From assembly GCA_021802485.1 (NCBI GenBank), contig JAJZXF010000014.1, positions 1 to 40,578 of the forward strand: a stretch of DNA of 40,578 nt, given 5' to 3'. This DNA comes from Actinomycetes bacterium. GTDB taxonomy: Bacteria; Actinomycetota; Acidimicrobiia; Acidimicrobiales; JAJZXF01. Positions 998-22,742 of this stretch are shown piece by piece (position 1 is the stretch's first letter; each line of letters begins with the position of its first letter). Both the position numbers and the translations under genes were made by a program. The notes below the pieces were generated by a model. The model was not told the origin of the DNA. It ran no database searches and saw only the letters and a list, made by a program, of their open reading frames with translations.

Positions 998-1023
998 GAC
1001 CGGACTTACTGAGATGGTAGGCA
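998..1023 (+). repeat. IS1634-family terminal inverted repeat, left
   Basis: It matches the reverse complement of 3124-3149 at 23 of 26 positions; the first 13 bases (GACCGGACTTACT) and last 6 (TAGGCA) are identical. It lies 91 bp beyond the transposase stop codon. Confidence 0.8.
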
Positions 1024-1113
1024 TGCAGAGGGGGTAGATAGTGGCATTGAACAGGGACAATGGCCGCGACGGACCTGAGGGGTCGTGTTACTACGCGAGC
1101 CTGTGACCTGCGA

Positions 1114-2994
1114 CTACCCAGCAGGGATTGGGAGCTCGTAGTCGAGGATCTGGGCCGGCTCGCGCACCTTGAGAGCAGCGAGGATCTTCCGTTGGCCATT
1201 CGTCGTTACCGAGCGCTTCGCGATGCGGCCCTCATTGGTCCCGAGGGTGACGAGGTGCATGCGCTCGAGCTCGTTTCTGACGTTTCGCCAGGTGTCGCCG
1301 GTTGCGTTCTTGACGACTCGGATGAGGAGCAGCCCGAGCCAGCAGAGCTGGATATGGGAGTGGATGCGGTCCTAGCGCGGTGGTGGAACACCGGTCGGAG
1401 CCGAGGGGCCCCTTTCATGTCTCTCCACCCGTGTTCAACCCGGTAGAGCTGTTTGTAGGCCTTGGCGAGATCGGTCGGGGTGAGGGTGTCGTCGCAAGTT
1501 CGGATGAGCCACTTGCCGTCGAAGTGGGCATCTTTGGCGATAGCGGCCTTGTCGACGCGAAGCCTGTGGTCCTTGGTCCGTTGGCAGAAGCGGGCGAGGC
1601 CAGGGATAGCACACAGCTCGCCGACAAGCTCGTCATTGCGCTCCTTGGACCACTTGTCGCTTGCCGCGATGCGCTTTGTAAGGTAGGCGACAAGGTTGGA
1701 TCGCACGATCTCGTCTCGGGCTTTGGCCTCAGGGTTGACGCAGACGACGAAGCGCTGTGTTCTCGCGCCATCGCCTACACGGACCTCCTTCACCGACAGG
1801 TTCCCCTCGACGAGGTGGTAGCGGCCGGGTGTTGCGAGCGCCTTCTTTGCGTCCGCGCTCGCGGAGCGGAGCTTCTCGCAGACGATGTAGTGCTCACCGC
1901 CTCGCTGCAGATAGGCCCGGTTCGTCTCGGAGTTGAAACCGGAGTCGCTTCCCCACAGGACCCGCTTGAGCATCCAGCCCCCGAGGTCGTCCTTCACGCG
2001 TCGGATGATGAGCTGGTCCGAGGTGGTCCCCGGAAACGTCCAGCAGCGGATCGGAAGCCCTTCGGCGGTGACGGCCATAGCGATCACGACCTGGGGCAGG
2101 TCTTCTCCGAACTACTCAGCTCCACCAAACCTGCAACAGCGATGCTGAGTGATGGTCAATAGCAAAAGCGCAGCAAGGAAAGCGCAACTCGACTTTGTAA
2201 CCGGTCGCTGTACGCGGTTCACTAGTTCGGTTAACAGGTCTTGGCGGTGATCCTTTGAGTGTTTGGAGAACTGGCGTGAGGCAAGCTCGTCGGGGACCGC
2301 TGGCTCCTTGGCATCTCCTGCATCTGCCTTCTCGGCCTGTGTAGCGCTAGCAAGCTCGATCTCTTCGTCAGCAACATCGACTTCTTAGTAGGTAGTGCAG
2401 GTGTCGACGAAGATCACGTCGCAAGACAAGTTGAGCAGGTTCGCTGTGCGAACAGAAGATGCCATTTGCGATATCCGCCAGCGCCCCGAGGAGAAAGTCC
2501 ATCGCCGCGTAGGCCGCCGGTGAGTCGAAAGCCTGACACGAGGGGATTGCGACGCGCTCTTGCACCCACGACACACGCGAGCTTCGACGCTGGCTCGAGA
2601 CAGCCCTGAGAAACCAGCGCGAACAGGACCCGCTCGATCACCTCACTCGCCCGAGAGACGCCGTCCGTCCGCCGCGTCCACGAGGGCTTTTTCGGGTCCC
2701 AAGACGGCGCCAGAGCTCGTCGAGCACGTACGCGCCGCCGAAGCGCCGGGAGTCGACGCTCTCGACATCGGAACCCTCGGTAGTAGCCATAGCCTCGCCG
2801 TGCTCGAGGAAGCGGCTGATCGACGACACCAGACGCGCGAGCGATTCGCGATCAGCCTTGTCTGCCCTGCCGAAGTTGTGGATCACCTTCGCGACCGGCG
2901 AGCCGCTCACCGGGTGGCGCTCGTTGTGGGCAAGCTCGAGGTTGCTGACGAGCGAGCCATCCTTGTTAGTGCGGCGCGTCTTTCGCAAGTACAC
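1114..2994 (-). pseudogene. IS1634-family transposase (DDE, IS4-like), multiply disrupted
   Basis: Read from a GTG at 2994 down to TAG at 1114. The N-terminus (YLRKTRRTNKDGS, then FGRADKADRESLARL and LDELWRRLG) shifts frame near 2640; segments with LEPASKLAC, then RVAIPSC, then NLLNLSCDVIFVDTCTTY lie in successive frames down to about 2385. There TAA replaces a codon usually for Phe after the first catalytic Asp (VDT). The frame then continues through ADEEIELASA and KDHRQDL into an inserted MITE at 2097-2242, resumes with PQVVIAMAVTAEGLP, includes the second Asp (WGSDSGFNSE) and the Glu (YRVEHGWRDMKG), and shifts again at about 1375, where two extra bases follow RPVFHHR. The last 85 residues (DRIHSHIQLCWLGLLL onward) are intact in the new frame. 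At least four frameshifts make it nonfunctional. Confidence 0.85.
2097..2242. mobile_element. MITE-like 130-bp insertion with 8-bp target duplication
   Basis: CAGGTCTT occurs at 2097-2104 and again at 2235-2242, and the 130 bp between them (2105-2234) have no counterpart in the transposase. Removing the insert and one copy of the duplication restores an uninterrupted KDHRQDL-PQVVIAMAV junction. Near the ends lie inverted repeats CCGAACTA (2107-2114) and TAGTTCGG (2223-2230); inside, ACTCAGC (2114-2120) pairs with GCTGAGT (2144-2150). There is no coding capacity. The size, target duplication and inverted repeats fit a MITE mobilised in trans. Confidence 0.75.
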
Positions 2995-3123
2995 GCCTAC
3001 AAGTAAAGACCATATTGCCCAGCACAGGTCAACTACTCGTGTGCCTACGCCATTCGGAGTATTTGGCCATGCCTCAGCACTCCAAACAGGGCAGATGTGC
3101 TGGTGGTGGAGATCGCCTTCAGG

Positions 3124-3149
3124 TGCCTACAAGCTGAGTAAGTCCGGTC
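3124..3149 (-). repeat. IS1634-family terminal inverted repeat, right
   Basis: Partner of 998-1023. It lies about 130 bp upstream of the transposase GTG, leaving room for a promoter. Confidence 0.8.
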
Positions 3150-3525
3150 CGTGAGCAAGGCTACTTCGGCCGCTCCGAACGCGCGCGCAGAGGTTCGGCC
3201 CCAGCATCCGAACACGACGGCACGCATAACGACGCCCCAGACGGCCGCATCGCCCTATCCCGAGGAGCGCGAAACCGGGGATCTGTACCTAGGGACCGCG
3301 CCTCATCCGTGACCCGAGCGTGACCCACGGGGCGCCCGTCCCGGTGCGACCGGCGGTCCGTCGTGAGCCATGGCACCGCGCGCCGCTGGGTAGCCAACCG
3401 ACTGACCAGGACAAACGCCGGCATACACCGAGCCTTGGCGGGACGAGAACTCGGTTCGAAGCAGCATGAGTGCTGCGCTCACAGAACGGAGCCGGGCCGC
3501 AGAAGTGGCCTTCTGGCAGGGCTTT
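3150..3525. other. Spacer between the IS and the att site, no gene seen
   Basis: A GC-rich stretch with only short overlapping frames and no recognisable protein, RNA or repeat. It is the chromosomal (or older island) sequence outside the tRNA-Ile element. Confidence 0.5.
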
Positions 3526-3573
3526 TGTGGGGCTAGCTGGAATCGAACCAGCGACCTCAGCATTATCAGTGCT
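3526..3573 (-). repeat. Distal attachment site with displaced 3' half of tRNA-Ile
   Basis: On the minus strand this is a tRNA-Ile 3' half: anticodon loop and stem, variable loop, a T-arm (GCTGG TTCGATT CCAGC) and acceptor strand TAGCCCC, followed by ACA rather than ACCA. The 23 bases at 3551-3573 are identical to 9095-9117 in the intact tRNA-Ile gene. The T-stem differs by paired, compensatory changes from the intact gene (GCAAG/CTTGC), so this is a real tRNA end of slightly different origin and not a random match. It is best read as the original 3' end, pushed away when the element integrated. Confidence 0.8.
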
Positions 3574-3706: not shown

Positions 3707-3809
3707 CAGGCCCTGCGCCTTCGTTCAGCGGCGCCCCGTGTTCTGCACCCCCCGCCGCCCAGCCACATACGCCTCGCCAACTATGCGTCAGGAGTGCTAC
3801 TCTGTCTCT

Positions 3810-4189
3810 ATGCCCGTGGTCGTCGAACACCCGCACTTCCGGCCCTGGCTGGCCTCGCTACCCGGAGCGTCGCTGCCAAGGTGGTCGACGGGATCGAGTA
3901 CCTGCGAGAGCACGGCCGAGGGGCGGTGCTGCCTGACGTTCGCCACCGCAGACAGACCAGTCGCCATTTCCCCGACATGAGCGAGGTCCGGGCTGACCAG
4001 CTCGTCGGCGGTCGCCGCTTCGTGATGAGGGTGCTGGTGTGCTTCGTTGACGAGGATCAGACGCTGCTCGTCTGCATCGGCGGCAACAAAGACCGCTACC
4101 CGGAACGGGTGGACCGGGACTGGTACGACGACTACGTGCCGGCGGCTGATCGGGTGGTCGACAGCTACAAGAAAGGAGCGTTGCGATGA
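3810..4189 (+). pseudogene. RelE/HigB-type toxin with a frameshift near its N-terminus
   Basis: The ATG at 3810 opens MPVVVEHPHFRPWLASLP, and the remainder (AAKVVDGIEYLREHG, then TSRHFPDMSEVRAD, RRFVMRVLVCFVDEDQTLL, IGGNKDRYPERV, DWYDDYVPAADRVVDSY) lies in another frame. The switch falls near 3863, where one missing base in CTACCCGGAGCGTC would restore a continuous LPxSVAAKVVDG. The second part is a typical actinobacterial HigB/RelE-like toxin ending in the WYDDYVPAADRVVD signature. TACTCT at 3798-3803 is a -10-like box 6 nt before the ATG. It overlaps the antitoxin gene by 4 nt (ATGA). It is either a real inactivating deletion or a sequencing error. Confidence 0.7.
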
Positions 4190-4569
4190 ACGAACCAACC
4201 CGGGACGAAGCGGAGCTGGCCGCCTGGAGCGCGGAGGTAGCACCTGACGAGTGGGTGCGCGACCACGGGTGGTCGCACCCGGACCCGGAGTTCGGGGAGG
4301 CGCTGGCTGCAGCTCGCCGCCAGACCGAGGCCGCCCATGCCATCGTGACGAGCCTGGCAGAGCTTCGCCGGGCCGTGGGCCTGAACCAGACCGAGCTGGG
4401 CGCACGGTGGGGGCACACCCAGTCGTTCGTCTCACGGGTCGAGCGGGATGTTGCGGGTGTGGAGATGGCGACGCTGGTGGGCTACGTCAAAGCACTCGGT
4501 GGCCGCCTGACCGTCACCGTCGAGGCAGGCGATCGGGTCTTCTACGAAGACCTCGTCGTCGGCTTTTGA
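4186..4569 (+). CDS. HigA-like antitoxin with Xre helix-turn-helix
   Basis: A 127-residue protein with an N-terminal acidic helical part (residues 1-40) and a helix-turn-helix at about 60-105: LAELRRAVGLNQTELGARWG, then QSFVSRVERD and EMATLVGYVKALGG, the Xre/Cro pattern. The C-terminal strand GRLTVTVEAGDRVFYE is usual in HigA-type antitoxins. Toxin-first order with a 4-nt ATGA overlap is the HigBA arrangement. It should bind the toxin and repress the pair; with the toxin broken, it may persist as an orphan repressor. Confidence 0.85.
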   Translation: MNEPTRDEAELAAWSAEVAPDEWVRDHGWSHPDPEFGEALAAARRQTEAAHAIVTSLAELRRAVGLNQTELGARWGHTQSFVSRVERDVAGVEMATLVGYVKALGGRLTVTVEAGDRVFYEDLVVGF

Positions 4570-9068: not shown

Positions 9069-9145
9069 TGGTGGGGCTAGCAAGAATCGAACTTGCGACC
9101 TCAGCATTATCAGTGCTGCGCTCTAACCGGCTGAGCTATAGCCCC
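9069..9145 (-). tRNA. tRNA-Ile (anticodon GAT)
   Basis: A complete 77-nt cloverleaf on the minus strand: acceptor GGGGCTA/TAGCCCC (7 bp), TA, D-arm GCTCAGCCGGTTAGAGC, anticodon stem CAGCA/TGCTG with loop CTGATAA (anticodon GAT), T-arm GCAAG-TTCGATT-CTTGC, discriminator A and an encoded CCA. tRNA-Ile downstream of gyrA on the same strand is a classic actinobacterial arrangement. Its 3' half was supplied by the integrated element, since the older 3' half lies at 3526-3573. Confidence 0.95.
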
Positions 9146-21809: not shown

Positions 21810-22742
21810 GTGGAGTGGGTAGAGGTAACGGCGCCAACTTCATTGGAGGCGCGTAGGATTGCTTGCGAGAAGCTGGGCGTAGCAGAAGACGACGTGGAAT
21901 TTGTTGTCTTAAGCGAACCGCGGAATGGGCTCTTTGGTAGGGTTCGCGGTGAGGCTCGGATACGTGCTCGCGTCAAGCCGCTAGAGCCCAAACCGCGGCA
22001 GTCATTCGCGAGGGGTGGTTCACGTAGACGTAATGATAAGGCTCGCAGGTCGTCGGGACCGGTGCCGACGCCATCAGCTGGCAAGGCCGCTGTGCCTAGT
22101 GCGGATGAGGGCCCGAACCACGCAGAGTCGGGCATGCTCGCCGGCGTTCCAGATGGCAAAGACCATGAAACACCACTGGGTCGGGGACGAGCCAGAAGAC
22201 CCAGAAGCGACGTCGAAGCCGCTCAGGGAAGAACAAGTAAACAGAAGGGAGCGAGTGTGGTTAACGGTGAGATCGTAGAGTCGGAGATCGTCGCAATTGC
22301 TGAGGAGTTCTTGTTGGGTGTCGCAGAGCGGTTTGGACTACAGGCAACGCTCGCAGCTGAGAGGAAGGACTCAGAGACGATCTCTGTCTCTCTTCTTGGA
22401 GATGGTCTTGGCCTGCTTATTGGCGCCCGCGGAGCAACACTCGCGGCACTCCAGGACCTCCTGCGTCTCGCGATCATCCAGAGAACTGGTCATGTGCCTA
22501 ACGAAAGAGTCATTGTCGATGTGGCTGGGTACAGGGCAAGGCGTGCGGAAGCACTGGCAAAGTTTGCTCGGGACGTGGGCAAGGCAGCCCTTGAGCAGCA
22601 GTGTGAACAGGTACTCGAGCCAATGTCACCTGCTGACCGGAAGGTTGTGCATGACGCCATCACCTCGATGCCTGGTCTCAGTACGCGTTCTGACGGGTTG
22701 GATCCCTCGAGGTGGGTGGTGGTTTTTCCATCAGAGGGGTGA
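21810..22742 (+). CDS. jag: Jag/KhpB-like RNA-binding protein (Jag_N, KH, R3H)
   Basis: A 310-residue protein. The N-terminal Jag_N domain (1-55; VTAPTSLEARRIACEKLGVA, then EPRNGLFGRVRGEARI) is followed by a linker of about 100 residues, disordered and basic, then a KH domain with GLGLLIGARGATLAALQDLL (the GxxG loop is IGARG) and a C-terminal R3H domain (YRARRAEALAKFARDVGKAA, MSPADRKVVHDAITSM, TRSDGLDPSRWVVVFP). Start GTG 21810. It is the usual neighbour of yidC. KhpB/Jag proteins bind RNA and influence cell elongation and division in Gram-positives; partner KhpA is not in this window. Confidence 0.93.
   Translation: MEWVEVTAPTSLEARRIACEKLGVAEDDVEFVVLSEPRNGLFGRVRGEARIRARVKPLEPKPRQSFARGGSRRRNDKARRSSGPVPTPSAGKAAVPSADEGPNHAESGMLAGVPDGKDHETPLGRGRARRPRSDVEAAQGRTSKQKGASVVNGEIVESEIVAIAEEFLLGVAERFGLQATLAAERKDSETISVSLLGDGLGLLIGARGATLAALQDLLRLAIIQRTGHVPNERVIVDVAGYRARRAEALAKFARDVGKAALEQQCEQVLEPMSPADRKVVHDAITSMPGLSTRSDGLDPSRWVVVFPSEG

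Follow-up and report, generated by a model that had tools for sequence, protein, structure and literature searches.

Several families of DDE-type insertion sequences (IS256, ISL3, IS1595, IS66, IS6, and ISAs1) generate 8-bp target duplications, and in IS1111-type elements the inverted repeats are subterminal and not terminal. Target duplications of 5 to 6 bp are characteristic of the IS1634 family, with variation in two members. These two, IS1549 and IS1634, are reported to produce target duplications of 8 to 514 bp, and the tips of the family follow the consensus C-----YT (PMC2266710). Here we describe a 130-bp insert in a transposase gene on contig JAJZXF010000014.1 of an Actinomycetes bacterium of the order Acidimicrobiales (assembly GCA_021802485.1), of which a stretch of 40,578 bp, referred to as the window, was analyzed. 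The insert resembles bacterial MITEs in that it is short, non-coding, and A+T-richer than its surroundings, has inverted repeats near its ends and a target site duplication, and lies in a mobile-element gene. It differs from them in that it is single-copy, its inverted repeats are only 8 bp long, subterminal, and asymmetric, and no parent IS was found. The length of its duplication is the same as that generated by the six DDE families listed above.

The host element

The interrupted gene was identified as an IS1634-family transposase gene, in agreement with the earlier note, on the basis of tblastn matches annotated as IS1634 transposases and of the presence of terminal inverted repeats (TIRs) of the family type. 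The features of the host element are as follows.

1000 to 3147, minus strand: host element, a decayed IS1634-family IS with its transposase on the minus strand, bounded by terminal repeats (inverted repeat 991-1023/3124-3156, TIR matches, transposase homology)
1000 to 1022, plus strand: left TIR of the host IS, CCGGACTTACTGAGATGGTAGGC (TIR match; same end in the decayed copy G000:C125:30523)
3125 to 3147, minus strand: right TIR of the host IS, CCGGACTTACTCAGCTTGTAGGC (inverted repeat, TIR match)
1206 to 2087, minus strand: longest stretch of the host transposase that is still open, on the 3' side of the insertion (DDE_Tnp_1, under the Pfam cut-off)

The insert introduces a minus-strand stop in every frame, and the host transposase is a pseudogene at other points too, with the part 5' of the insertion also broken. 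The insertion may have come before or after these other lesions. Another decayed copy of the host element is present in the same genome as a 287-bp end fragment that is 96% identical to it (G000:C125:30523, L115). Homologous IS1634 elements from the order terminate in sequences like CCGGACTTCCGCAGTTGGTAGGCAG and, where the duplications could be read, have 5-bp ones (CATGA in L124 and CTGAC in L126). In the closest relative (L117), whose transposase is 77% identical, IS1634-type terminal repeats CCGGAGTTCCGTAGTACGTAGGCA and CCGGACTTGCTGAGCTCGTAGGCA are found 69 bp apart and in the same orientation, around 3114 to 3183, and this pairing suggests nested or tandem IS1634 ends there.

A type II toxin-antitoxin pair, consisting of genes for a Phd/YefM antitoxin and a ParE toxin (236 to 867), adjoins the host IS. 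Two minus-strand tRNA-Ile(gat) genes were predicted by ARAGORN, at 3527 to 3573 and 9069 to 9145; the first has 47 bp (43 identical) in common with the 3' part of the second, after which the two diverge. The pair is arranged as in a tRNA-targeted integrated island and would, judged from its layout, delimit one of about 5.5 kb, with the host IS located just outside this stretch. At 3788 to 4569, a small open reading frame with no Pfam match is followed by an HTH_3 regulator gene, an arrangement like that of HigBA-type toxin-antitoxin systems.

Evidence for insertion and target duplication

The boundaries of the insert were established by direct reading and a repeat search, which gave the following features.

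2097 to 2104, plus strand: left copy of the 8-bp target site duplication, CAGGTCTT (direct reading, repeat search)
2105 to 2234, no strand assigned: MITE-like insert, 130 bp (absent from IS1634 relatives, single copy)
2107 to 2114, plus strand: left subterminal inverted repeat, CCGAACTA, 2 bp from the end (repeat search)
2223 to 2230, minus strand: right subterminal inverted repeat, CCGAACTA on this strand, 4 bp from the end (repeat search)
2235 to 2242, plus strand: right copy of the 8-bp target site duplication, CAGGTCTT (direct reading, repeat search)

The two copies of CAGGTCTT that enclose the insert form an exact direct repeat, just as had been described from the letters, and this repeat can be extended on neither side. 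On the minus strand, the host protein runs up to the insert as KHSKDHR and resumes beyond it as DLPQVVIAMAV, and it had been claimed that removal of the insert and one copy of the repeat would rejoin the transposase. This was borne out by relatives without the insert, which read an unbroken KDHRxDLPQVV exactly at the point of interruption. The empty site is KDHRPDLPQVVLGMAV in L043 (an order-level relative, 62% identical), KDHRDDLPQVVIGMAV in L110 (a Rhodococcus opacus plasmid), and KDHRDDLPQIVIGMAV in L112 (a Dietzia plasmid); in all three the 130 bp are absent. Since these homologues provide the empty site, the insertion is real and the 8-bp repeat is duplicated target DNA. These results demonstrate that the 130 bp were truly inserted, by a staggered insertion that duplicated 8 bp of the target.

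The subterminal inverted repeat that had also been noted, CCGAACTA and TAGTTCGG, is perfect (8/8). The tips themselves are not inverted, the exact repeat beginning only after a left tip of 2 bp (CT) and a right tip of 4 bp (TTAA); the 20-bp ends are CTCCGAACTACTCAGCTCCA and TTAACCGAACTAGTGAACCG. An exact inverted repeat of at least 8 bp within 5 nt of both ends was obtained in 0.03% of shuffles and in 0.075% of 130-bp stretches of a genome background made up of 20 stretches taken from the same genome. When the window was scanned freely for inverted repeats enclosed by 8-bp direct repeats, another case turned up (inverted repeat of 8, at 21916/21991), so the repeat pattern alone is unconvincing and the argument is carried by the empty site. 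The G+C content of the insert is 51.5%, versus 62.9% in the flanking host IS. The insert has no capacity to encode a transposase, given its length of 130 bp and the stops in all three minus-strand frames through it. No Rfam family, promoter pattern, or terminator pattern was detected within it, and its RNA fold did not go beyond chance (z of 0.10 and -1.36).

Taken together, these features are probably best explained by a solitary MITE-like element without a transposase of its own, or by what a deletion has left of a DDE-type IS. In either case, a transposase acting in trans and making 8-bp staggered cuts would have placed the 130 bp in the decayed IS1634-family gene. A DDE transposase of this kind would cleave the two target strands 8 bp apart, the short element would be joined to the staggered target ends, and filling of the gaps by host repair would leave CAGGTCTT duplicated. 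We infer both the DDE transposase as the agent and the non-autonomous status of the insert, the latter from the duplication and the short inverted repeat. The earlier MITE reading is plausible, though no more than half proven, as the insert is single in its genome and absent from the other genomes sampled. Weighing against the preferred explanation, the inverted repeats measure only 8 bp and lie 2 bp inside one end but 4 bp inside the other, which is atypical of intact DDE element tips, and the lack of a fold beyond chance also counts against it. The subterminal position of these repeats, as in IS1111-type elements, would also suit the site-specific integration of a small circle by a tyrosine recombinase or an IS110/IS1111-like enzyme, with CAGGTCTT as a core common to circle and target and not a fill-in duplication, but the insert contains no recombinase gene, no further copy sharing this core was found, and nothing in the data requires such an event, which we regard as extremely improbable.

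Search for further copies

The insert is present once in its own genome. A second copy with an 8-bp duplication, for which the earlier note had suggested searching the genome and its relatives, was not found: no match beyond chance was obtained in 99 relatives or in overlapping samples of 395, 396, and 397 genomes from the class, phylum, and order, respectively. Plasmids and phages (blastn) and viral contigs likewise gave no match above chance. The two-end pattern of the insert was absent from 84,980 species genomes in a pattern scan; such scans demand exact words, and a diverged relative could therefore be missed. The left 16-mer had 27 matches in these genomes, all of which were rejected as unrelated, with nothing in common beyond the searched word; two were Methylomicrobium contigs carrying one repeated sequence that lacked the partner end. 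One viral match to the right end was alike only as far as the searched word, and the paired-end patterns in viral contigs were two copies of one unrelated sequence. Near matches to the left end were not enriched in the same genome (28 versus 33 in a reversed control), and one of them (C139:4391), approximately 1.4 kb from an ISL3 remnant, appeared to belong to a chromosomal NTPase-gene region and not to an IS end.

No IS with ends matching those of the insert was found either. Of the families with 8-bp duplications, the comparison took in IS256 and ISL3, whose copies in the same genome do not have matching ends. None of the sequences searched, in the genome or beyond it, gave a second instance of mobility of the insert, which weighs against the preferred explanation. 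Of the features of a MITE, the duplication at an empty site and the lack of transposase capacity are present, the exact inverted repeats lie inside the ends and not at the tips, and membership in a repeated family is not supported. With a single copy and no related ones, the insert is termed MITE-like and not a member of a MITE family.

Its single-copy state, its similarity to nothing searched, and its short and asymmetric inverted repeats would be compatible with filler DNA, in which the 8-nt overhangs of a staggered double-strand break are filled in and end joining ligates a captured fragment into the break, so that a duplication arises without any transposon. Inverted repeats near both ends would be unexpected in such a fragment (P of about 3e-4 to 8e-4), however, and no source for it was found in the genome, where the best partial match to the insert is 27 bp (E of 0.09). 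We consider filler DNA improbable and retain insertion of a transposase-less element as the preferred explanation.

IS1634 as a possible parent

The 8-bp duplication had been taken to point to a parent IS from a family with duplications of that length. This does not strictly follow, because the duplications of IS1549 and IS1634 vary, with 8 bp falling in their range of 8 to 514 bp (PMC2266710), and because the insert is similar at its left end to the TIR of its host. Aligned over 16 positions, CCGAAC-TACTCAGCT at the left end of the insert and CCGGACTTACTCAGCT in the right TIR of the host have 14 matches, 1 mismatch, and 1 gap (P of 0.0009 in shuffles and of 0.003 relative to the window background). 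The first 55 bp of the insert are also collinear with the first 86 bp of the right end of the host IS, with a P of at most 0.001 when gaps were cheap and 0.013 to 0.026 with ordinary gap costs. The insert could on these grounds be a non-autonomous IS1634-family derivative, mobilized by an IS1634-type transposase and inserted into a member of the same family. Conversely, its right end has no significant likeness to the host TIR (P of 0.24), it does not contain the GTAGGCA block, an inner TIR feature common in this IS1634 branch, and its duplication is 8 bp, versus the 5 bp read in relatives. Both of its ends, CTCCGAAC and TTAACCGA, miss the tip consensus, and CCGAACTA, counted from the start of the repeat, has an A where the consensus has a T. 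The comparison of insert ends with the host TIR was, moreover, made post hoc, with several scorings tried. An IS1634 origin seems rather unlikely to us. We regard it as very improbable that the insert is the founder of an undescribed non-autonomous family, whose transposase, possibly of the IS1634 type with its variable target duplication, acts on subterminal repeats of 8 bp that leave tips of unequal length.

Implications

If the insert were tied to IS1634, it would be relevant to the variation in target duplication within that family, for which there is no explanation; the link is weak here. The insert and its host form a nested mobile-element relic that is ordinary in kind. They provide one case, with clear boundaries, in which a small element sits within a dying IS, and recognizing it aids the correct annotation of the host pseudogene.
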